This document shows positions 10,248 to 60,769 of a DNA stretch of 64,000 nucleotides, piece by piece. Under the pieces are notes generated by a model. It was given only the letters and a program-made list of their open reading frames with translations, had not been told where the DNA came from and made no database searches. The stretch is from positions 62,001 through 126,000 of the IMG/VR virus record IMGVR_UViG_3300026097_000980. One strand, 5' to 3'. How positions within the stretch are numbered: the stretch's first letter is position 1; each line of letters begins with the position of its first letter. The stretch comes from a virus. The position numbers and the translations under genes are program-made.

Positions 10248-11648
10248 ATGCTACAAAAAATACCAACCTCTCAACTAAAAAAACCTATTCTAATTTGTAT
10301 ACATGATATTTTAGACACCTGTTCATCTGATTGGTCGAAAGAGATTGCAAAAAATTTATCAGATTATATGATAAATCGATTTCTAAATAACGGCTATGAT
10401 GTGTGTATAGGAACAGACGAAAACGAGTTATTAGCACAACCAACCGATCAGTATACTCATGCAGTAGTCATTGCTTCGGGAACAAGTCCTAAGCTGTCTG
10501 ACAGAATAATTTATGCTATCGAAGACAAATGCAAAGAAGACTTTTATATCGCAGGACATGTTTTAGACAGAAAAGAAAAATATTTTGAATTACATCATCA
10601 GTTTTATATTATCAACTTGTCGACACACAAGGATCTTGGGTTTCCTTCTTTGGGTGAAGAATCGGAAGTAGAACATGTAAGAATTCAACCTATTTCGAAT
10701 AGTGAAGATGAATATATATCGCAAGAATTATGTTTGGGAGATTCAAACACCTTATATAAAGGAACCATGCATGGTTGGAATATTTTAAACACTGCTCTTA
10801 TAAACAATAAAAAAGTAATAGACCTCGGTAGTGATATTAGAAATAACAAACGATATTTTTATTATGAATACGATCATGTATTTTTGAGAGAATCTACCGA
10901 ACTGTTTTACAATCAATTTCTTTTTAATAACATAGTAGTTCCGTTTAACAGTGACGAATTGAGAAACAATATAGATAAAGACGGTCCTATAGAACAATAT
11001 ATTACGTTAGGCACCGGAATTAACTGGGTAGAAAATTTACATCTAATCGGTTTCAGTGAAAGAACAGAAGTGTTTTTTACCGACATAAATCCATTAGTGT
11101 TACAGTTTATGCAACGAATGGTCAACGACTGGGACGGAAAAGATTATGTTGATTTTTATCTCGAACAAGATTTTTTACTGCCAAATCACATCACTTATGA
11201 TTACGATAATTTTATTGCACAAGCAAGGACCCAATGGAACAATTTCCTCAATAAAGTGGATAACTGGCAAGAAAAATGGAACGCTGTAAAAAAATTAAAG
11301 TTTCATTTTATCTCGATAGATTATATGAGTGATTACAATCTAGACTGGTTCGAAAATGATAAAAACACTGTTTTTAACGCAAGCGATATGTTCGATCACA
11401 TACCAGGAGTGTTCCAGCAAAGTATGAAGTATAGAATAGCGGCTGAAAATCGATTCCTAAACAAATTAAAGGAAAAAGACTCGAATATTTTCTTGTTATG
11501 GAGCAGTCGATCAGCAGGTGCATTTATACCTAAGACATGTCGTTCGTCTTCTGGTGTAGTTTCTAAGATAGATTTGATTGATATAAACGAACTAATTCGT
11601 CCTTATTGGCATAAGGACGATTGGAATGTTCTTAGACCTTTAGTGTAA
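10248..11648 (+). CDS. Unrecognised protein, possible methyltransferase-like domain
   Basis: I do not recognise this 466-residue protein. The N-terminal part (KPILICIHDIL, then THAVVIASGTS, then FYIAGHVLDRKEKYFELHHQFYIINL as separate strands) looks like alternating beta/alpha structure, as in glycosyltransferase or Rossmann folds. In the middle, YITLGTGINWVENLHLIG followed by TEVFFTDINP resembles motifs I and II of a SAM-dependent methyltransferase. A motif close to late promoters (ATTAAATA, 10235-10242) ends 5 bases before the ATG. The gene is alone on the plus strand and converges on the long fibre gene with a 9-base overlap. Confidence 0.5.
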   Translation: MLQKIPTSQLKKPILICIHDILDTCSSDWSKEIAKNLSDYMINRFLNNGYDVCIGTDENELLAQPTDQYTHAVVIASGTSPKLSDRIIYAIEDKCKEDFYIAGHVLDRKEKYFELHHQFYIINLSTHKDLGFPSLGEESEVEHVRIQPISNSEDEYISQELCLGDSNTLYKGTMHGWNILNTALINNKKVIDLGSDIRNNKRYFYYEYDHVFLRESTELFYNQFLFNNIVVPFNSDELRNNIDKDGPIEQYITLGTGINWVENLHLIGFSERTEVFFTDINPLVLQFMQRMVNDWDGKDYVDFYLEQDFLLPNHITYDYDNFIAQARTQWNNFLNKVDNWQEKWNAVKKLKFHFISIDYMSDYNLDWFENDKNTVFNASDMFDHIPGVFQQSMKYRIAAENRFLNKLKEKDSNIFLLWSSRSAGAFIPKTCRSSSGVVSKIDLIDINELIRPYWHKDDWNVLRPLV

Positions 11649-12977
11649 ATTTATCCAGCCAGGAGTGCCGTTAGATACTCCGCCACCAGCAAGACCTGTA
11701 TCATCTACATATCCCTGATATTTTTGTGTATCTGAATTAAATATTACCATTCCTGCAAGAGGAGTAATACTGGAAATTTTTGATGCGTCTTGCTCTGCAT
11801 ATTTTACAATTTTAGATTCAAAAGCACCGGTATAGTACATGGTAAACTGATGGTAATCGTTTGCTACGTCGCCTTCACCGTCGCCTGCACTAATTGAGAA
11901 AGCTAAATTAGATGCCGGTGCATTATCCGATGCTGTTGCAGAAGAGTCCATCTGACTTAGAAGACTTGCCAAACTCTTTCCGATATCATCTCCAGCACTA
12001 TCGAAATAAGTAGAAAATACAAGTTGGCTGGTCACGTCGCCCGGGCTTACTGTTGCAGGACTTTCAAATGATCCGCTTACAACATGTAATTGTATTTTCG
12101 GAATTGACCCACCGGATTTAAGTCCGTTTATACGTAAAACCTGTTCTCCTTCCGATCTAATAAAGGTACCTTGTGTTGTATCAACAAATACTTTACCCAA
12201 CCCACCGGCGTCTTGAATGCTTGAAGTTACAAGACTTCCTGTCAACGTGCCGTCTATTGCATCAACTATGGGTGTGCTATCGTCGCGGAATACAGAACCA
12301 ATTACATCACCATTTAGTGTACCATTAAATGTTGCTGTAGCAGAGTCCACAACTAAAGTGCTATCGTCACCGACGATATTAATATTAAAGTTAGTCCCGT
12401 TAACAATTTCTGCTCCGGTGCCAATTGTTGAGCCGCCTATTGTGGATCCTGCTGGCAAGTTCACAGCAGTACCTGTCGATGTTATCGTTGCATCACCTAA
12501 AAATAGACTAGATCCGCTTAGATACAAGTCTCTAAATTTATTGCCAGATGTACCTAGATCATACACGCTGTCTGCGGCTGGCACAATGTGTGATCTAATT
12601 GTGCCGTTCAAGTTAAACGAACCTAAAACACCATCTACCAAGATCTGCGAGTCGTCTGCAAATACTGAACCTTTAAAGCCGTCTGCACCTATTACACCTT
12701 GATAATTAGAAAGATCTTGACTTACTGTGGCAACAACTTTGTTTAGAACATCGTCGTAAGCAAAACTAACACCTTCGTGATCGCTATGAGATGTGAATAA
12801 ATCCGCAGAAGCATCTTGTGCTTCTTCAGCGGTAAAATTGGCAGCCGCAATTCCTCCTGCGGTTGATCCGTTACCTATAAAAAGTTGTTCTAATTGAGTA
12901 TCCCAAATCAGTTCACCTTCGACGGGTGTGATTGCATTTCTGTCTGCGGTAGGACCTCTTCTAATTTGTAAAGGCAT
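11640..12977 (-). CDS. Tail-fibre protein
   Basis: A 445-residue fibre protein. It begins with a virion-attachment-like segment (LQIRRGP, then PVEGELIWDT and LFIGNGS) that is also seen in the spike at 57315. A repeat region follows: GSVFADDSQILVDGV and GSVFRDDSTPIVDAIDG, shared with the fibre at 51678, and YDLGTSGNKFRDLYLSG, a motif frequent in phage fibres. The C-terminal third matches the separate gene at 8989. It has the Gly-, Ser- and Asp-rich composition of trimeric fibres and a GATAAATA late motif upstream. It probably binds the host receptor. Confidence 0.8.
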   Translation of the reverse strand: MPLQIRRGPTADRNAITPVEGELIWDTQLEQLFIGNGSTAGGIAAANFTAEEAQDASADLFTSHSDHEGVSFAYDDVLNKVVATVSQDLSNYQGVIGADGFKGSVFADDSQILVDGVLGSFNLNGTIRSHIVPAADSVYDLGTSGNKFRDLYLSGSSLFLGDATITSTGTAVNLPAGSTIGGSTIGTGAEIVNGTNFNINIVGDDSTLVVDSATATFNGTLNGDVIGSVFRDDSTPIVDAIDGTLTGSLVTSSIQDAGGLGKVFVDTTQGTFIRSEGEQVLRINGLKSGGSIPKIQLHVVSGSFESPATVSPGDVTSQLVFSTYFDSAGDDIGKSLASLLSQMDSSATASDNAPASNLAFSISAGDGEGDVANDYHQFTMYYTGAFESKIVKYAEQDASKISSITPLAGMVIFNSDTQKYQGYVDDTGLAGGGVSNGTPGWINLH

Positions 12978-13010: not shown

Positions 13011-13018
13011 TATTTATC
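13011..13018 (-). promoter_or_regulatory. Late promoter motif (GATAAATA) for the tail fibre
   Basis: The minus strand reads GATAAATA, one base from the T4 late consensus, 33 bases upstream of the fibre gene start. It overlaps the stop of the upstream oxygenase gene. Spacing leaves room for a short leader with an SD (CTGGAG). It fits late expression of a virion gene. Confidence 0.5.
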
Positions 13019-13580
13019 ATATATACTCTATATCTGCCGCGATTACAAATCGATTTTCTGAGCTGGTATAAATGCCCGGTCTGTGCCAAACACTGCTTGG
13101 ATATATCAACCAGGTATGCGGCTGAGGTTTAACATACACAGTATTTTCAAATTTCTCGCCATCGAGACTCATCTCGGTGCCCGACAAATCATAATCCGTA
13201 ACATCGTCTGGTATGTGAGCATAATATATTCCAGACAGCATGGGAGTGGTTTTATGCTGATGGTGATGCCATAGATTGTTGCGATCTTCTGCGGTTTCTT
13301 TATTGGTCATAAAGCTCCAAGCCATCAAGTTAGATATCTTTGCTTCTCTGCCTAAATACATAAAGACCGCAAACATAAAACTCATTCGGTATTTCAACCA
13401 CACAGGCTCCGACCGTGCAAAAATATTTTCTTCGGTTTGAAACCTTGGGGAATTTTTAAAATAACCGCCAGCGTCTATTATGTTCTTAACAATTTCGCAT
13501 GCTGTTTGATCGTCCTGTTCAGTAATGACCGAACTGAAGTCGAATTTTCTAAAAAGATCGTCCTGTTCTATAATATTCAT
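13017..13580 (-). CDS. Putative 2OG-Fe(II) oxygenase
   Basis: A 187-residue protein of a type often annotated as a putative 2OG-Fe(II) oxygenase in marine T4-like phages. AWSFMTN leads to NLWHHHQH (His105-107), then LSGIYYAHIP, then PHTWLIYPSSVWHRPG (His166) and ENRFVIAADI (Arg177). The first ligand motif is His-rich rather than a plain HxD. It abuts the transglutaminase-like gene with no gap. The substrate is unknown. Confidence 0.65.
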   Translation of the reverse strand: MNIIEQDDLFRKFDFSSVITEQDDQTACEIVKNIIDAGGYFKNSPRFQTEENIFARSEPVWLKYRMSFMFAVFMYLGREAKISNLMAWSFMTNKETAEDRNNLWHHHQHKTTPMLSGIYYAHIPDDVTDYDLSGTEMSLDGEKFENTVYVKPQPHTWLIYPSSVWHRPGIYTSSENRFVIAADIEYI

Positions 13581-14198
13581 TTACATCCTAAAATATTCAA
13601 AATAGTCCTTGACCAATGCTTTTTCTCTGTCTCTATTTTCGTAAATCCAGTGCTTGGTCAATCTATGCGGAGTTCTCGGTGTGTAAGTAAATTTTCCGAA
13701 AAACCCTGTATCATACGGTTCGCCATACCACTCCGGATTGTGTTTTACAATACAGGCTATAGGAGCCATAGCTCCGAATGTATAATGTACAGAACTGAGC
13801 ATTGCAAAATCACAAATAAATCCATCAGCAACCACAACCATATGCGTATCAATGGTACCTTGTTCTACCCAGCTGTTGTATTGACCAATTTCAGCATACC
13901 AATTTTTCTCTGGCTTTTCGTACAGCAACGTAACCTGTTTACAGTGTGCTTCAACACCATGCAGTCTCAGCACACGCCTTAACATATTGCTCATTAATAT
14001 ACATTGATTTCCGTACTCGTGTACCCATCCTATCCTATAAAACCGAGTATAGGTTTCTAATATTTTAGGAGGAAGGCTATTTAGATCTGTAGTTGCTAAA
14101 GAATAGTCTTCCGGAGCAACCTTAAAGTTCGGCGACCAATCATACCTTTTATGGCCGTCTCCGGTTTTGTCTTTCCAATTATCGAAAAAATTTGTCAT
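13581..14198 (-). CDS. Transglutaminase/papain-like fold protein
   Basis: A 205-residue protein. Its spacing suggests a transglutaminase-like catalytic triad: Cys66 in YGNQCILMSNMLRRVL, at the start of a helix, His119 in TIDTHMVVVADG and Asp130 in FICDFAM. Members of this superfamily are cysteine proteases, peptide N-glycanases or acyltransferases. The order Cys, His, Asp and the strand after His are what I see; activity is inferred. It overlaps the next upstream gene by 4 bases and lies inside the accessory island. Confidence 0.5.
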   Translation of the reverse strand: MTNFFDNWKDKTGDGHKRYDWSPNFKVAPEDYSLATTDLNSLPPKILETYTRFYRIGWVHEYGNQCILMSNMLRRVLRLHGVEAHCKQVTLLYEKPEKNWYAEIGQYNSWVEQGTIDTHMVVVADGFICDFAMLSSVHYTFGAMAPIACIVKHNPEWYGEPYDTGFFGKFTYTPRTPHRLTKHWIYENRDREKALVKDYFEYFRM

Positions 14199-14647
14199 TC
14201 AAAAATTCCTATTTTTTGTAAATGTTCAACTGTCTGGTCGGATAGTTCGATTTCAAATTGGATTTTTTTGTTAAGTTTATCTTCTTCTAGATCAAATATC
14301 TGTTTTCTTAAATTAATTATTTCTTTTTTTGCTTGATCGATATCGTCTTGACTTAAAAATACGTATTCGTTGTTGTTAACGATATCGAGAAGTTCGCTGA
14401 TGCGATTATGAGCCATGTTAATTTTTTGTTGATTTAGGTCAATTCCTGAATGAATATTCGCCGCATTTAACAAAGTTTTAACATTATAAAAACACAGGGT
14501 CATGAATTGTTTTTCAGAATCATAAACTGACCAATTTTGTCGCAGATCATCGCTAGACTCGGATGAGTCATAATTAAAACAAAAGAGATTTATCTTTTCT
14601 CTTAATAATTCTAAAAGATTCTCCGCACGATAAATGCTCAGTTTCAT
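14195..14647 (-). CDS. Unknown helical protein
   Basis: I do not recognise this 150-residue protein. Residues 85-130 (AHNRISELL, then DDIDQAKKEIINLRKQI and DLEEDKLNKKI) look like a long amphipathic helix or coiled coil. There is no signal peptide or membrane segment. It overlaps both neighbours by 4 bases, so it is translated with the omega-subunit gene upstream and the transglutaminase-like gene downstream. Confidence 0.6.
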   Translation of the reverse strand: MKLSIYRAENLLELLREKINLFCFNYDSSESSDDLRQNWSVYDSEKQFMTLCFYNVKTLLNAANIHSGIDLNQQKINMAHNRISELLDIVNNNEYVFLSQDDIDQAKKEIINLRKQIFDLEEDKLNKKIQFEIELSDQTVEHLQKIGIFE

Positions 14648-14868
14648 AGTTCGAAATCGAAATTTTCTAAATGTCGATTATCGAATTCTTTTCTTGTGTA
14701 TAACCCTCGTTCAATCTCTTTTAACGCAGTTACAGGTGCAGAATGTTCTTCTTCAATTCTTGGTTCGCTGCCATTTTGAATTTCTCTGGCACGATGTGCC
14801 GCCATCAAAATTAAATCATGTTGTCCGCCAGCGTTAATTACGCATTTGTCTCTATCAATATGTGCCAT
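14644..14868 (-). CDS. rpoZ: RNA polymerase omega subunit homologue
   Basis: A 74-residue protein matching the bacterial omega subunit: an acidic/basic start with DKCV at the position of the family's EDCV, then GQHDLILMAAHRAREI (residues 15-30), the helix that clamps the beta-prime C-terminus, then GSEPRIEEEHSAPVTALKEI as in host omegas, and a short tail. Omega helps assemble and stabilise RNA polymerase. Here it could alter the host enzyme in favour of the phage; that role is inference. The acidic end ENFDFEL differs from the host proteins I know. It lies 7 bases after the oxygenase gene at 14876. Confidence 0.8.
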   Translation of the reverse strand: MAHIDRDKCVINAGGQHDLILMAAHRAREIQNGSEPRIEEEHSAPVTALKEIERGLYTRKEFDNRHLENFDFEL

Positions 14869-14875
14869 TTTTTCC

Positions 14876-15502
14876 TCACTTTAATTCTAATCTGCACGTA
14901 CCGTCTCCGATAGTGCCTCTTACCCAAACGTTAAATGCTATGCTGTATCTATCAATAGAACTTCGATTCGGATTTACTCGATGTTCTACATGCCATGGAA
15001 ACAAAAATACGTCTCCTTCTGAAGGAACAAAAGCATATTCTTCAGTGTTAAAACAATTCTGTTCGTGGTCCTCCTTAAAATCAAATCTTATCATTTCTCC
15101 GAAAAGACTTACATGATTATGTGCTTGTTTAAAAACAATTTCTCCACTGTTTTCTGCAACCGTCATATAGTAAACACCAGAAATAGCACAATTACTGTGC
15201 CAGTGTTGTGTGTTGTATTGACCTTTTGTGTGCCGATTAGCCCAACTGTTTAAAATATAAAATTCTACGTCTTTGCTAATACCCAAAATTTCATGTGCGA
15301 AATTGTTTATTTCATCTAAAATTTTAGATTTAAGATTAGCTAATTCAGGACGATCTAGTAAATACTTGTCATCGGTGTCTGCATGTCCTACAGCGTTTTG
15401 ATCGTAAGTGCATTTCCTTACTAGGTCTTTTTTAATTTGATTTAATCCTCCGATATTAGCATGATACAACGGAGTTGCAAACATCGGATGAACGGTTGCC
15501 AT
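14876..15502 (-). CDS. 2OG-Fe(II) oxygenase (TIGR02466-like)
   Basis: A 208-residue protein that fits the phage 2OG-Fe(II) oxygenase family known as TIGR02466: an N-terminal MFATPLYH, then ILNSWANR, TQHWHSN (His100 and His102), ISGVYYM, ENSGEIVF, a P-SEGDVFLFPW strand, HVEHRVNPN (His174) and DRYSIAFNVW (Arg185). Such proteins are widespread in T4-like cyanophages and pelagiphages; substrates remain unsettled. The start overlaps the stop of the small basic protein by one base. Confidence 0.8.
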   Translation of the reverse strand: MATVHPMFATPLYHANIGGLNQIKKDLVRKCTYDQNAVGHADTDDKYLLDRPELANLKSKILDEINNFAHEILGISKDVEFYILNSWANRHTKGQYNTQHWHSNCAISGVYYMTVAENSGEIVFKQAHNHVSLFGEMIRFDFKEDHEQNCFNTEEYAFVPSEGDVFLFPWHVEHRVNPNRSSIDRYSIAFNVWVRGTIGDGTCRLELK

Positions 15503-16203: not shown

Positions 16204-16231
16204 ATTATACACTAATTATTAAAAAAGTCAA
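16204..16231 (-). promoter_or_regulatory. Sigma70-type promoter for tRNA-Ser
   Basis: TTGACT (16226-16231) and a perfect TATAAT (16204-16209) are separated by 16 bases on the minus strand. Transcription would begin about 16198, just before the mature tRNA 5' end at 16193. It lies in the gap after sdhB. Confidence 0.7.
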
Positions 16232-16233
16232 TA

Positions 16234-16941
16234 TCAAGTAGCACGACTGACCAACATATCACGAATATGTCCAATCGCCTTTGTGGGATTGAGTCCTTTA
16301 GGACACACACTCACACAGTTCATGATTCCTCTGCAACGGAACACTGAGAACGGATCATCCAGTTCGCTCAGTCGTTCTTCTGTGGCTGTGTCTCTGCTAT
16401 CAGCAAGATAGCGATATTGTGCTAACAGTGCTTGCGGTCCTAGGAACTTGTCTGGATTCCACCAAAAACTAGGACAACTTGTTGAACAACAAGCACACAT
16501 GATACACTCGTACAGTCCATCTAGCTTTGCTCGTTCTTCTGGAGATTGTAGTCGTTCTTGATTGGGTGTAGGCTCGTCGTTTTGTAGATAAGGTTTTACT
16601 TTTTGATACTGCTTATAGAACTGTGTCATATCAACCACTAGATCGCGAATAACAGGCAACCCAGGCAGTGGACGAATAACCAATCTACCTTTGCGATCTA
16701 CAACTTCACTCACAGGAGTAATACAGGCAAGTCCATTCTTGCCGTTCATATTAACACCGTCACTGCCACAAACACCTTCGCGGCAACTTCTACGATATGT
16801 AAAACTTTGATCCCGTTCTTTGATCATACCCATAACATCAAGCACCATGAGATCCTTGCCTTCAGGTAGATCAAACTCTACCTCTTGCATCCAAGGTACG
16901 TCGTCTGTTTCTGGATTATAACGATATAAACTTACTTTCAT
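16234..16941 (-). CDS. sdhB: Succinate dehydrogenase iron-sulphur subunit
   Basis: A full-length 235-residue SdhB. All cluster motifs are intact: the 2Fe-2S ligands in SCREGVCGSDG (Cys53, Cys58, Asp61) and Cys73; the 4Fe-4S and 3Fe-4S ligands in CIMCACC (146-152), Cys156, Cys203, Cys209 and Cys213. The quinone-side SFWWNPD (159-164) is also present. It is close to Pseudomonas and E. coli SdhB as I remember them, so it looks recently acquired from a proteobacterium. The enzyme normally needs SdhA, SdhC and SdhD, none of which is here, so the protein would have to join the host complex. It overlaps the start of the small protein gene downstream in position (16938) by 4 bases and belongs to a respiratory cassette. 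Confidence 0.92.
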   Translation of the reverse strand: MKVSLYRYNPETDDVPWMQEVEFDLPEGKDLMVLDVMGMIKERDQSFTYRRSCREGVCGSDGVNMNGKNGLACITPVSEVVDRKGRLVIRPLPGLPVIRDLVVDMTQFYKQYQKVKPYLQNDEPTPNQERLQSPEERAKLDGLYECIMCACCSTSCPSFWWNPDKFLGPQALLAQYRYLADSRDTATEERLSELDDPFSVFRCRGIMNCVSVCPKGLNPTKAIGHIRDMLVSRAT

Positions 16942-17275: not shown

Positions 17276-17356
17276 TTAGTCTTGTCTACCAGTGTCTGCA
17301 ATAGCCATGACCAAAAAAACAGCAACCCATAGGCAAAATAGAGTAAACGGATCCAT
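17276..17356 (-). CDS. 26-residue membrane peptide
   Basis: The peptide starts MDPFTLFCLWVAVFLVMAIA and ends in a polar tail (DTGRQD), so almost all of it is one membrane helix. Its ATG overlaps the cytochrome c stop (TAATG), the usual sign of coupled translation. Very short single-span subunits accompany terminal oxidases such as cbb3 and bd; an analogous role here is inference only. Confidence 0.45.
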   Translation of the reverse strand: MDPFTLFCLWVAVFLVMAIADTGRQD

Positions 17357-17775
17357 TATAATGTCTCCACATAGTTGCCAATGTCACGCATGTCTTGTTC
17401 AGTCATCCAACTGGCTTGACCCCACATCATTGCACTTTGCTGTCCGATGGTCTCGCCATTCTTGTATTTGGTAAGTTTTTCAACAATCTGATCACTGGTC
17501 TGACCTGCAAGTGTTGGACCAACGCCACCTTCACCTGCTTGACCGTGACAGGCGGCACACTGAACATAGTGTTTTGCACCCACAGCCACAGCAGGATCAA
17601 CTGCCGCTACTTTTACTGGCTCACCACTCTTCCAGGTTACTCCACAAAAGTAATCACCACGAGGACATTGTCCGTTATTAAATCCAATGTTACGATTCTC
17701 ACCGCCGCCCAAAAATGCAAACACACTTGCGGTTGCAACAAACATTAACACCATTCCGATTACTGCTTCTTTCAT
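17356..17775 (-). CDS. Class I c-type cytochrome
   Basis: A 139-residue protein. Residues 1-22 are a hydrophobic signal or anchor (VIGMVLMFVATASVFAFLGG). The heme motif is CAACH (Cys73, Cys76, His77), followed by GEGGVGPTLAGQ as in short cytochromes c and a C-terminal helix; the distal Met is probably Met116, Met117 or Met124. Two more Cys (37 and 44) precede the heme domain. It would work in the periplasm as an electron carrier and needs the host's heme-attachment machinery. It is translationally coupled on both sides to small genes. A phage-encoded cytochrome c next to sdhB is unusual. Confidence 0.85.
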   Translation of the reverse strand: MKEAVIGMVLMFVATASVFAFLGGGENRNIGFNNGQCPRGDYFCGVTWKSGEPVKVAAVDPAVAVGAKHYVQCAACHGQAGEGGVGPTLAGQTSDQIVEKLTKYKNGETIGQQSAMMWGQASWMTEQDMRDIGNYVETL

Positions 17776-41146: not shown

Positions 41147-42748
<1,602 letters not shown>

Positions 42749-43045
42749 TTACTCTCCCTCTCTTACAATTGCATACACTTCTTCTTCTTTTAGAATGTGG
42801 TAGTCCTGTCCGTCAACTTTAATCGTTTGTCCTTGGAAAGTACCAAACACTACAGTATCATCTACTTTAATTTGCATTTCTACATGTTCACCGTTGTCTA
42901 GTACTCTACCAGGTCCAACTGCAAGAACTTTTCCTTTGGTGGGTTGCGCATTCACCGCATCTGGAATAACCAGCGATGAAGCATTTAATGTATCGTCATC
43001 TAGTAATTGGACAACGAGTCTGTCTCTGATAGGTTCAAATTTCAT
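42749..43045 (-). CDS. groES: Co-chaperonin GroES
   Basis: A 98-residue GroES. FEPIRDRLVVQLLDDD, then a mobile loop region (SSLVIPDAVNAQPTKGKVLAVGPG split here as SSLVIPDAVNA and TKGKVLAVGPG), VKVDDTVVFGTF and ILKEEEVYAIV fit the family. It forms the operon groES-groEL ending at the terminator at 41111. The upstream gap holds a second AATAAATA-like motif at the end of the bS21 gene. Confidence 0.92.
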   Translation of the reverse strand: MKFEPIRDRLVVQLLDDDTLNASSLVIPDAVNAQPTKGKVLAVGPGRVLDNGEHVEMQIKVDDTVVFGTFQGQTIKVDGQDYHILKEEEVYAIVREGE

Positions 43046-53736: not shown

Positions 53737-54837
53737 TTATATATTAGGCAAATCGTCGTAGTCAAGTTTTTCTGTCATAACTCCTATGACGTAATTTGTG
53801 CTCTCATTCTCCTGTAGTGCAGTTTGCTTTGAAGACGTATCCGAGTGCTTGTTGAACCAAGGAATCGGAGTAGTCTTGGGAGCCTGCTCAGTGTATTTAA
53901 TCCCAATGTCCTTCAAACTTTCCTTTGCCGTGTAGTCTACAAAGTCTCTGAGAATGTTTGCATTTAGACCAATCACTGGACCTTTCATAAACAAGTAGTC
54001 TGCCCATTGCTTTTCTTCTTCAATAACAGCCATATACATATCATAAACTTCTTGCTCGCATTCTTCCTTAGCACGAGCAAATCTTTCATCTTCTTTAACA
54101 ACTTGATTGATAAGATATGCAGTCCATCCTTTGTGTAGTAGCTCGTCCTGCAGAATAAGGCTGATGATATTGCCGTTGCCGATAAAGATCTTATTCTCTA
54201 CCATTGCGAGGCTTGTAGCAAAACTTACCATAAAGCGAAGTGCTTCGAGCGCATAACTTGCGTTCAATGCCAGCCAGATAGCTTTAATGTGTTCGTACTC
54301 ATCTACTTTCTTACCTAGTTCAACTTCACAGTTTAGCACATGCAGTTTGTCATAGTATTCGCCTACATTGGCAGCCATGTCTACGATTTCATTCGTATCG
54401 TGAATAGAGTTAAACACCTCCTTAGGTACATTGTAAATGTTACGAATGATATGGCTGTATGAACGGCTGTGAATATTTGTTTCAAAAAATCCCCAGTTTA
54501 AACACAGTGCTTCTAGTTCTGGTAGACTCACAACAGGAGTGAATACCTGTGTAGGACCTCGTCCTTGGATACTGTCCAGTGCGGTCTGTCTCAGTAGATT
54601 AGAAGTAAAGATGTGTTTAACTGCGTCGCTTGAATCTTTAAAATCTTGTGAATCTTTTGTTAAACTTACTTCTTCAGGAACCCAAAAGAATCCGCGAGCT
54701 GTAGTTTCAAAGCTCTGAATTTTTGGATATTTTACTTCTTCGAAACGTTGGATAGTTACAGGACCTGCTGGATCCAGAAACATTTTACGCTGTAAATAGT
54801 CTGTATTCTTTGTTAAGTCATATTGTGCTTTGCTCAT
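53737..54837 (-). CDS. nrdB: Ribonucleotide reductase class Ia, beta subunit
   Basis: A 366-residue R2 protein. LDSIQG (Asp ligand), IHSRSYSHIIRN (His and radical Tyr), ALEALRF (Glu) and LQDELLH (Glu, His) match E. coli NrdB. One oddity: where E. coli has E-T-I-H between two iron ligands, this protein has E-T-N-I-H, one residue more. The C-terminal DYDDLPNI is the tail that docks with NrdA. It lies 8 bases downstream of nrdA. Confidence 0.93.
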   Translation of the reverse strand: MSKAQYDLTKNTDYLQRKMFLDPAGPVTIQRFEEVKYPKIQSFETTARGFFWVPEEVSLTKDSQDFKDSSDAVKHIFTSNLLRQTALDSIQGRGPTQVFTPVVSLPELEALCLNWGFFETNIHSRSYSHIIRNIYNVPKEVFNSIHDTNEIVDMAANVGEYYDKLHVLNCEVELGKKVDEYEHIKAIWLALNASYALEALRFMVSFATSLAMVENKIFIGNGNIISLILQDELLHKGWTAYLINQVVKEDERFARAKEECEQEVYDMYMAVIEEEKQWADYLFMKGPVIGLNANILRDFVDYTAKESLKDIGIKYTEQAPKTTPIPWFNKHSDTSSKQTALQENESTNYVIGVMTEKLDYDDLPNI

Positions 54838-54845
54838 GTTTGCTC

Positions 54846-57197
54846 CTATAATTTACACGCTTCGCAATCTTCATCTTCTTCGAATCCAATAACACTGTGT
54901 CCGTTAGTTTGTATTTCTAATTTAGGTTGTTCTGTTGTGTTGAGAAGTTTATCTTCTTGTTTTGCACCGCTTTTGTTAATTAGACTGTAATAGAATGTTT
55001 TTAGTCCCCAATAGTGTGCCTGCATTAAATTTTTAGCAATCATGGTACTAGGAACTTTACCTCCTTCAAAGTAAGCAGGATTATAAAATGTATTGGTGCT
55101 AATACTCTGATCAACATACGCCGCCAAAACTGCCGCAGTTTTTATATACCCGACGCAGTCTGTCTGTTGCCACATCAACTGGTATTTCTTTTTAAGTTTA
55201 TGATACTCGGGAACTACTTGTACAAACGACCCTGCTTTTGATTCTTTGGTTGAAATCAGTGCCATTGGCATTTCGATACCGTTAGTACTGTTAATAACAA
55301 CTGAGCTTGACTCTACCGGAGCAATAGCTGTTAGTGTGGCATTATGAATTCCGTATTGTTTCATATCAGCTCGTAAAGTTTCCCAGTCAAGTTCTGGAGT
55401 AAAATCAACCAAGTCGTTAACTCCCGGAGCGCGGCATTCCCAAGGAAACACTCCACGGCCGTACCGAGTCTTACTTGAATCTTTGCAAGCGCCTCTTTCT
55501 TTAGCAAGTTCGACACTGGCTTCGGTTAAGAAAAACGCTTGATGCTCCATCCATGTTTTTACTTCTTCTAGTGAATCTTGTTCGCCGTACTGTAAATTCC
55601 TCTTAGCATGCCAATACGCAAGATTGGTAACACCGATGCCTAAAGGACGGATTTCGTCATTGCTTAATCGACTTTGGACACTTAAGAAGTCTTGATAGTC
55701 TAGGATATTACACAAACTACGCTGTAAGATTCTACATGCCCTGCGCATGTCTTCCGGATTTCTAAAGGAACCCCAATTAATGCTTCCTAAGGTACACAAC
55801 GCTATGCGTCCATCTTCATCGTCCAGGCGCTTAAATGGTTTTGTGGGCAGTAGAATCTCACAGCATAGGTTTGATTGGTAAATTGTGTGATACTCAGGAT
55901 CAAAAGGACCTTGATTCATCACATTGTCAATGAACACAAGATAAATGCGTCCAGTGTCAGTGCGTTCTTTCAGTATGCCTGAGCGGAACACTTCATCTGC
56001 TGAGATTGTTTTCTTTCTAATGTCTGTGCGCTTTTCATATTTTACGTACAGCCTTTCGAACTCCTCCGTGTTAGAATAAAATGCTTCGTACAGTTCAGGT
56101 ACTTCATTAGGATCAAAGAATGTTATTTCTTTTTGTTCTTTAAATCTTCTCCAAAAGAATGCATTGAGGACGACACCATAGTCCATATGTCTGACTCGGG
56201 TTTCATCGGTTCCTTGATTATTTTTAAGAACAATAAGATCGTCAAACTGGTAATGCCAAATAGGATAAAACACTGTAGCACTTGCATTTCTAATCCCTCC
56301 TTGCGAGCAACTACGAAGATCACCAAACCACTTCTTAAGGAATGGGATCATACCTGTGTGCATAATCTCTCCGCCTCGAATAGGAGCACCTAGCGGACGA
56401 AGCCTACCAATTTCAAATCCAATACCTGCTCGCTTTGAAGCATACTTCGCCATCATTTCGCCTGACGCAAAAATACTATCAAGATCATCGTCCGAACGAA
56501 TTAACACGCAAGAACTGAACTGTTTTGTTTTAGTACCAAGTCCGGCAAGCACAGGAGTGGCAAGGGTAAACAAGCCGTCCGAGGCACAGTTATAATACTC
56601 TTTGATTAACTTCATTCTTGTGCGATTAGGTTCTTCACGATGCATAACGGTTGCGGCGGCAATCATATATCTAACTTGAGGCGTTTCGTATATGGTCTTA
56701 GTACTTCTGTTCTTGACTAGATACTTTTCAATCATCTGTTCAATTGCAGAATAGGAATAGTTCTCATCCTTTTCGTGATCGATGATTGTGTTCATACGAT
56801 CCCAATCCTCTTCTGTGTACCACTCAAGAAGTTCAGGTGTGTACAATCCGACCTGGACGTTCTTTTTTACAATATCATACAGGCTCGGAACTTCGTATGA
56901 GCCGTATACATCTTTGCGTAACATAGATAATCGCTGTTTGCCTGCGACATATTGATAGTTTGTATGGCCGACTCCTGGATTTGATTCTACATTAATAAGG
57001 TCGACGATTGCTCTCAGTGTTATTTCGTCAATTTCTTTTGTGGTAATACCGTCATAAAAGTGCGGCTGTGCATTAATTTCGATCATGCTCTGACTTACGT
57101 CGGCAATTCCTTGACAAACTTTCGCTATCTGTGCCTGCCATTTTTCGACTGCTAATATTTCTTTCTTTCCGCTTCTTTTAATGACTGTGATTGACAT
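54846..57197 (-). CDS. nrdA: Ribonucleotide reductase class Ia, alpha subunit
   Basis: A 783-residue R1 protein that makes deoxynucleotides with NrdB. It has an N-terminal ATP-cone (VIKRSGKKEILAVEKWQAQI), active-site cysteines in FSSCVLI, SNLCCEI and ALCTLGSIN, and the C-terminal CEAC redox pair (EDCEACKL). Radical-path tyrosines are expected in the QTDCVGYIKTAAVLAAYVDQ region. The 117-base leader upstream has a short hairpin (CATCA/TGATG) and no consensus promoter. Confidence 0.95.
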   Translation of the reverse strand: MSITVIKRSGKKEILAVEKWQAQIAKVCQGIADVSQSMIEINAQPHFYDGITTKEIDEITLRAIVDLINVESNPGVGHTNYQYVAGKQRLSMLRKDVYGSYEVPSLYDIVKKNVQVGLYTPELLEWYTEEDWDRMNTIIDHEKDENYSYSAIEQMIEKYLVKNRSTKTIYETPQVRYMIAAATVMHREEPNRTRMKLIKEYYNCASDGLFTLATPVLAGLGTKTKQFSSCVLIRSDDDLDSIFASGEMMAKYASKRAGIGFEIGRLRPLGAPIRGGEIMHTGMIPFLKKWFGDLRSCSQGGIRNASATVFYPIWHYQFDDLIVLKNNQGTDETRVRHMDYGVVLNAFFWRRFKEQKEITFFDPNEVPELYEAFYSNTEEFERLYVKYEKRTDIRKKTISADEVFRSGILKERTDTGRIYLVFIDNVMNQGPFDPEYHTIYQSNLCCEILLPTKPFKRLDDEDGRIALCTLGSINWGSFRNPEDMRRACRILQRSLCNILDYQDFLSVQSRLSNDEIRPLGIGVTNLAYWHAKRNLQYGEQDSLEEVKTWMEHQAFFLTEASVELAKERGACKDSSKTRYGRGVFPWECRAPGVNDLVDFTPELDWETLRADMKQYGIHNATLTAIAPVESSSVVINSTNGIEMPMALISTKESKAGSFVQVVPEYHKLKKKYQLMWQQTDCVGYIKTAAVLAAYVDQSISTNTFYNPAYFEGGKVPSTMIAKNLMQAHYWGLKTFYYSLINKSGAKQEDKLLNTTEQPKLEIQTNGHSVIGFEEDEDCEACKL

Positions 57198-59671: not shown

Positions 59672-60769
59672 TTAATTTTCAATTAATTTTTCCCAGGGTA
59701 CATCTTTACTACCGAAATGTCCGTAAACACAATTGGCACTGTACTGAGTAAAATTAAACATATTAAATTGTCTAATGATACCAAGTGGTGTAAGATCAAA
59801 TTGTTCAATCCAATTAAGTATACTCGCGTCGGCGCCGTCGCTGTCAACATATATGCTAACTGGATCTTTTACTCCAATAGCATAACCTAACTGTATAGTA
59901 CAACTGTTACAAAAACCTTTTGCTACAGCGTTTTTAGCTAACCAGCGAGCCATGTATGCCGCACTTCGATCTACTTTGGTAGGATCTTTTCCACTAAACG
60001 CACCGCCACCGTGACGAGCATAGCCGCCGTAAGTGTCTACAATAATCTTACGACCGGTAACACCTGCATCGCCATCCGGGCCACCTACTACAAAATTGCC
60101 TGTTGGGTTAAGATATAATTTTGTAACACCTTCTTGATATAATCCTCCAAGTTCTTCTATAATTGCAAGATTAGCTAAACCAAGTGCTTCTAATTTTTTA
60201 CCTTCGGCATGCTGTGTGCTTACAACCACGGCTGTAGCCACACTAGGCTTTCCGTCTACATATTTAATAGATACCTGTGACTTGGCATCTGGACCTAGTA
60301 TATCTAAATTAGATAAACGCTTGTTATCTAAATTTTTAAGTATTTCGTGACTGTAATGGATAGGTGCTGGCATATAACTTGACGTTTCGTTACAGGCATA
60401 CCCGAACATTAGTCCTTGATCGCCTGCTCCGAAGTTGTCTGTGCCTAACCCAATGTCTCCACTTTGCTTGTGTAAATGATTGTGTACTGTTAATTGGTTC
60501 CAATGAAATCCTTGTTGTTCGTAACCGATTTCTTTGACCTTGTCTCGCACTAACTGCTCAACTTCGTCAGTAGTTAGATTGAAGTTTTTAACTTCTCCCG
60601 CTAGGCAAACATAGTTTGTAGTTACAAGAGTTTCGCATGCTACTCTGGTAGTTTCATCACCCGCTTGCAATGCCGCATCTAAGATTGCATCTGAAATCTG
60701 ATCAGCAACTTTATCAGGATGTCCGGAGCTCACTGACTCGCTTGTAAATATAAAGTTATCTTTATTCAT
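59672..60769 (-). CDS. metK: S-adenosylmethionine synthetase
   Basis: A 365-residue MetK, making SAM from methionine and ATP. FTSESVSSGHPDKVADQISD, GAGDQGLMFGYACNET, the P-loop-like GGPDGDAGVTGRKIIVDTYGG and GGGAFSGKDPTKVDRSAAY are all intact. It is about 20 residues shorter than E. coli MetK. No clear SD precedes the ATG. The product serves the two radical SAM proteins and methyltransferases; AhcY removes the by-product. Confidence 0.94.
   Translation of the reverse strand: MNKDNFIFTSESVSSGHPDKVADQISDAILDAALQAGDETTRVACETLVTTNYVCLAGEVKNFNLTTDEVEQLVRDKVKEIGYEQQGFHWNQLTVHNHLHKQSGDIGLGTDNFGAGDQGLMFGYACNETSSYMPAPIHYSHEILKNLDNKRLSNLDILGPDAKSQVSIKYVDGKPSVATAVVVSTQHAEGKKLEALGLANLAIIEELGGLYQEGVTKLYLNPTGNFVVGGPDGDAGVTGRKIIVDTYGGYARHGGGAFSGKDPTKVDRSAAYMARWLAKNAVAKGFCNSCTIQLGYAIGVKDPVSIYVDSDGADASILNWIEQFDLTPLGIIRQFNMFNFTQYSANCVYGHFGSKDVPWEKLIEN

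Follow-up and report, generated by a model that had tools for sequence, protein, structure and literature searches.

Omega subunits of RNA polymerase encoded by uncultured large phages and their possible role around ppGpp site 1 of the host enzyme

Introduction

The gene at positions 14644-14868 of the window (the whole stretch of phage DNA analysed here, 64,000 nucleotides long) encodes, by its sequence and predicted fold, an omega subunit of RNA polymerase, the smallest component of the bacterial enzyme. Sequence comparison places this protein in a family of phage omegas, previously uncatalogued and found in many uncultured large phages, as it lies on the phage side of an omega tree and its gene adjoins that of a predicted partner, c3. 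No description of a phage-encoded omega was found in the open-access literature.

Phages use sigma factors, inhibitors and DksA mimics to remodel the polymerase of their host, and T4 does so with gp55, gp33, gp45 and others, although to our knowledge the T4 polymerase-modifying set holds no omega homologue. Phages that carry a phage-specific omega may also customise the polymerase of their host. We hypothesise that such an omega docks on the beta-prime subunit of the host, alters the face shown at site 1 for the starvation signal ppGpp and works together with the coupled c3, a reading to which we give a probability of about 0.6.

Identity of the omega gene

The omega gene lies within a run of genes on the minus strand, with the following features (window coordinates).

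16204..16231, minus: sigma70-like promoter candidate, TTGACT-16-TATAAT, 11/12 match, upstream of the omega gene run; putative function
14876..15502, minus: 2OG-Fe(II) oxygenase (PF13759, phrog_81), directly upstream of omega in the same gene run
14874..14877, minus: GAGG, predicted from sequence as the omega gene's Shine-Dalgarno site, 5 nt before the ATG and overlapping the TGA of the preceding oxygenase gene
14644..14868, minus: phage omega (RpoZ-like) subunit, 74 amino acids, 74 codons, ATG start; assigned by PF01192, TIGR00690, PDB chains and AF2/Foldseek
14195..14647, minus: c3, a predicted mostly helical protein of 150 amino acids, downstream of omega, its start overlapping the omega stop (junction sequence, alignment)
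13581..14198, minus: protein of 205 amino acids with a 4-nt overlap with c3; its single IMG/VR match is an identical copy
13017..13580, minus: c5, 2OG-Fe(II) oxygenase-like (PF13759), its position after omega and c3 conserved in relatives
11640..12977, minus: protein with a match to tail-fibre cluster c23 (Mtd_N), which closes the conserved block

The encoded protein, MAHIDRDKCVINAGGQHDLILMAAHRAREIQNGSEPRIEEEHSAPVTALKEIERGLYTRKEFDNRHLENFDFEL, scores 35.9 bits against Pfam PF01192 (E 7.7e-9; gathering score 26 bits) and 31.5 bits against the rpoZ equivalog TIGR00690 of NCBIfam (cut-off 23.6 bits). The sequence-only reading had called the gene RpoZ and had named an HMM search as the check; that search, now run, gives a significant match above the curated cut-offs of both models, and the identity is borne out by PDB omega chains and by an omega fold match. 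Using phmmer against solved structures, 21 sequences were matched, nearly all of them omega chains, led by those of V. cholerae (E 7.7e-9, the best) and E. coli (E 8.1e-8). An AlphaFold (AF2) model, built from an alignment of 23 window and viral sequences, has a mean pLDDT of 86; Foldseek matches it best to E. coli omega chains of the PDB, at TM 0.7-0.8 (about 0.77) and probability 1.00, the ppGpp co-crystal 4jk1 among them. The two motifs quoted in the earlier reading are indeed present in the open reading frame, as AAHRAR and ALKEI, which correspond to the conserved omega motifs AAKRAR and ALEEI (PMC7700224). Thus the protein has in common with bacterial RpoZ/omega, such as that of E. coli, a helical core, the AAxRAR and ALxEI motifs, a length below 100 amino acids and a predicted fold at TM of about 0.77. 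It is the single omega across the whole 155,508-base virus record.

The omega gene belongs to the phage

That the gene is phage-encoded, as had been claimed, is upheld: phage genes stand on both sides of it, their order is collinear with that of a related phage record, and it is far from any gmk-rpoZ-spoT block. The virus record encodes a phage clamp loader, virion proteins, an AAA ATPase, a ClpA-like protein, NrdA, GroEL and an Mtd_N-type tail fibre cluster. Among its metabolic and chaperone genes are GroEL with a probable GroES (window 41147-43045), NrdA with a probable NrdB, forming a ribonucleotide reductase (53737-57197), and a probable S-adenosylmethionine synthetase (59672-60769).

A second omega-bearing IMG/VR record of 138 kb (G029) shares 50 genes with the window's record (matches covering at least 60% of gene length), mostly in collinear order and at a median identity of 46%. 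The two omegas, which occupy corresponding places, are 49% identical. Since this orthologue is collinear, the omega gene was most simply inherited within the lineage and is not a recent host capture or a chimera. We also considered whether omega has evolved faster than its neighbours in the genome and rejected this, as 49% is near the median of the 50 common genes. Another IMG/VR record, L002, is identical to the window over 7,487 bases; it represents the same virus and therefore is not independent evolutionary evidence. Single-protein scans for close relatives returned only this identical record.

Searches with T4-like capsids and terminases did not place the window's record with T4-like phages, and 2-3 other omega-bearing records do fall there (two have T4-like capsids). 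The closest deposited relatives found, by the ATPase and the ClpA-like protein, are the jumbo phages PA5oct and Paride (Arenbergviridae), Phosso and Atu_ph07; the window ATPase is 54% identical to that of PA5oct and relatives. Unlike the window phage, the complete genomes of PA5oct, Phosso and Atu_ph07 have no omega by PF01192. As context, replication of Paride in dormant Pseudomonas depends on (p)ppGpp (PMC10761892), and its relative PA5oct is among those without omega.

The host is likely a marine gammaproteobacterium, because the SdhB of the record is closest to that of Marinobacter and neighbouring gammaproteobacteria (79%) and the ATPase is nearest to those of Pseudomonas phages. This SdhB, a full-length iron-sulfur subunit (window 16234-16941, minus), together with a c-type cytochrome (17356-17775, minus) and a ferredoxin-like protein (13886-14212 of the whole record), makes up a set of electron-transfer genes that is unusual for a phage.

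Gene neighbourhood and the partner gene c3

The omega and c3 genes overlap by 4 nt (ATGA), so that c3 starts within the omega stop codon. The pair is flanked by two 2OG-Fe(II) oxygenase genes (14876-15502 and 13017-13580), and relatives too carry genes of this kind close to omega; c5 is 62% identical to its copy in the G185 record. The order omega, c3, 2OG oxygenase and Mtd_N fibre is common to the window and the relative L115, whose cluster c23 protein matches PF18454 and tail-fibre PHROGs.

By alignment, the c3 of the window is homologous to the c3 of other phages and has at least 205 relatives in IMG/VR. A c3-seeded scan returned 80 loci, 55 of them with an omega within the DNA covered, and in 33 of the 80 omega directly precedes c3 (within 20 bases on the same strand), which amounts to 24 distinct omegas. 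Eleven c3 records with no nearby omega hold none elsewhere either, although these records may be fragments. At loci that seemed to have no omega, the DNA upstream of c3 was searched for a hidden, divergent one, and none was found. The link between omega and c3 is thus strong but not obligatory. It suggests that the two proteins may interact.

Pfam and PHROG gave no match to c3 above cut-off, nor did the deposited phages give one. The AF2 model of a c3 relative (pLDDT 89) is mostly helical, and a fold match to 3kdq, a Corynebacterium diphtheriae protein, was set aside as weak (TM 0.37-0.40 on the query, E 0.06).

The sequence-only reading had also expected polymerase modification from the presence of both sigma70-type and T4-type promoters, and this part did not hold. 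T4 resembles the present case in that phage proteins remodel the polymerase; its late promoter motif, however, is not enriched in the window, where TATAAATA occurs 3 times against 5.6 expected. Around the omega gene there are 12 sigma70-like sites, compared with 19.5 in shuffles, and a sigma70 region 2 protein was found neither in the window's virus record nor in ten omega-bearing records. The further suggestion, that the viral omega could replace the host subunit and change promoter choice, is a plausible hypothesis.

Distribution and selection of phage omegas

With an omega alignment as query, a scan of IMG/VR returned 35 loci, from which L137 was rejected as host DNA, with gmk adjoining omega, and the host-like omegas of L142 and L143 were left out of the phage set. 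Combined with the c3 scan, this yielded 60 distinct phage omegas, the window's included. Six of these were scanned against PHROG, with no match. In 50,697 deposited phage records, tblastn returned no genuine phage omega, the matches being host contaminants and the 4.4-kb MT839270, which was set aside. Among those rejected, six records labelled Salmonella, Escherichia or Campylobacter carry an enterobacterial gene (the assemblies of Campylobacter phages A11a and A18a have enterobacterial rpoZ), and Acinetobacter phage MD-2021a (CAKLQH020000003, CAKLQF020000004) carries a chromosomal gmk-rpoZ-spoT block; the bacterial rpoZ in the MD-2021a and A11a/A18a records is likely contamination or mislabelling. 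MT839270.1 (our L161) is an unverified 'Bacteriophage sp.' scaffold from human faeces with an omega, of either phage or host origin, at 1446-1604 (E 4.9e-19). As a side observation, translation initiation factor IF-1 (PF01176) is encoded by 11 of 29 viral records examined, namely L115 (4669-4887) and 10 other omega-bearing records; the window's record has none.

In a tree of 92 omegas (85 columns), 46 phage proteins fall on one side of a branch with support 97/91 and 46 proteobacterial proteins on the other, the host set being Proteobacteria only and the window omega standing on a very long branch (2.37) that meets another long branch. Among close phage omegas the median dN/dS is 0.125 (69 non-independent pairs), which indicates purifying selection and hence that phage omegas are kept functional.

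Divergence from host omegas and ppGpp site 1

The window omega is at most about 41% identical to sampled host omegas (range about 28-41%), and a search of 26 gammaproteobacterial genomes with the window protein found no bacterial omega more than 70% identical to it. Bacterial rpoZ sits in gmk-rpoZ-spoT, whereas the window gene has neither gmk nor spoT beside it, its neighbours being the 2OG oxygenase and c3.

We compared the phage omegas position by position with 53 proteobacterial host omegas, with the proviso that the hosts of other phages may be non-proteobacterial. A2, R3 and T5 are kept in 53/53 of these host proteins but in 29, 37 and 20% of phage omegas; likewise, the invariant or nearly invariant host residues D44, K45, T47 and R52 (the last of which may be a ppGpp contact, a point not used as a claim on site 1) are kept in 2, 7, 12 and 25%, respectively. 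Q29 has become E in 98% of phage omegas. Core positions are in contrast retained, with R26 at 100%, R28 at 97%, A50 at 97% and L51 at 100%. Phage omegas are also shorter, with a median of 75 amino acids against 91.5 in hosts, and many have N-terminal extensions. The MAR N-terminus is retained in 15 of the 60 distinct phage omegas, about a quarter (counts at the N-terminus are somewhat inexact, since start codons were assigned by rule), and thus a loss at site 1 is not universal among them.

The window protein itself begins MAHID where hosts have MARVT, and so differs from the MAR N-terminus (residues 2-5) that marks site 1. It is changed at the host-invariant positions R3, T5, N15, R16, F17, K45 and R52, it has lost the host D44-K45-x-T47 loop residues, and it is without the long acidic C-terminal tail; with several host-invariant positions changed, host contact residues are only partly kept. 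N15, R16 and F17, gone here, are retained at 75-97% in other phages, most of which keep GNRF, and for this reason docking of the window omega could be weak.

In E. coli, site 1 is formed by omega residues 2-5 together with beta-prime R417 and K615, which together hold the phosphates of ppGpp; removing omega 2-5 abolishes ppGpp binding there (PMC7676912). Site 1 slows elongation and promotes backtracking and is dispensable for the stringent response, and the phosphate contacts to omega residues 2-4 are partly main-chain (PMC10191844). Given these main-chain contacts, ppGpp might still bind after R3H or another substitution on its own. The N-terminal extensions of other phage omegas would probably be more disruptive to site 1 than a substitution. 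The N-terminal divergence of phage omega, as seen in the aligned sequences, is real.

Proposed mechanism

We propose that, during infection, omega would be co-produced with c3, to whose gene its own is translationally coupled, and would take the place of host omega on beta-prime of the host RNA polymerase. It retains the docking-helix motifs (AAxRAR, ALxEI) but is without the long acidic tail and is changed at the N-terminus and in the loop. The polymerase of the infected cell would therefore show a face peculiar to the phage around ppGpp site 1, and would offer c3 or some other phage factor a place to attach. As a result, phage transcription would be less sensitive to ppGpp-slowed elongation, phage genes would be favoured, or both. 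We infer from the sequences incorporation of phage omega into the polymerase, with an altered ppGpp response or insensitivity. Because most bacteria can do without omega, a phage omega might bring little gain. A stronger form of the idea, in which a viral omega that is widespread and inherited along with its c3 partner makes the polymerase ignore ppGpp at site 1 and recruit a phage factor, thereby allowing uncultured large phages to transcribe in starving or slow-growing hosts, is tentative and on balance doubtful.

Alternative explanations

It may be that phage omega simply equals the host's in function, keeping beta-prime folded and the polymerase assembled at host shut-down, with its differences due to neutral drift. 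The retained core motifs, the purifying selection and the MAR sequence in 15/60 phage omegas would suit such a dosage or assembly helper, as would the known scaffold role of omega for beta-prime (PMC7700224). Neutral drift, however, sits poorly with the consistent phage loss of the host-invariant D44, K45, T47, R52, A2 and R3, and the common Q29-to-E change (98%) and tight coupling to c3 suggest a common changed role; we regard this explanation as unlikely, though one to be taken seriously. Less probable again is that the protein is a decoy which does not support the polymerase and instead sequesters omega-binding host factors, or poisons the polymerase for host promoters to bring about host shut-off. 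The unusual N15-R16-F17 divergence and the long branch of the window protein could be read in this way, but the docking motifs are retained and GNRF is present in most phage omegas.

A recently captured host gene (a moron), or a chimeric assembly that includes host DNA, might be suspected from the clearly host-like SdhB (79% Marinobacter) and cytochrome c in the same region, and from the host contamination behind most omega matches in deposited phage records. This is nevertheless very improbable, given the identity of at most about 41% to sampled host omegas, the phage-side placement in the tree, the collinear orthologue at the lineage's median identity, a flank in which neither gmk nor spoT adjoins omega, and a second record with an identical 7.5 kb. 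Our preferred reading therefore remains that of a phage-specific omega that would dock on host beta-prime and alter the site-1 face.

Relation to known systems and significance

Among the nearest parallels are TraR and lambda Orf73, plasmid and phage homologues of DksA that reprogramme the polymerase without ppGpp (PMC9239242). Like phage omega, they are small mobile-element homologues of a polymerase-associated, ppGpp-site-forming host protein, and a ppGpp-independent action is what we propose for omega; they differ in belonging to the DksA side (site 2, the secondary channel) and in being experimentally characterised, whereas phage omega concerns site 1 and is known from sequence and a model. 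A model for c3 docking is offered by the gene transfer agents of Rhodobacter capsulatus, in which virus-like genes are transcribed via an omega-binding factor, GafA (PMC9638019), although GafA uses the host omega, while c3, a protein outside the Pfam and PHROG families at their cut-offs, lies beside a phage omega.

If the stronger form of the idea is true, a c3-partnered viral omega would be the omega and site-1 counterpart of TraR at site 2. A phage omega family maintained by selection, with a conserved partner and consistent alterations at site 1, would open a direct way to study the roles of omega and site 1, and would inform how phages cope with nutrient-stressed hosts.
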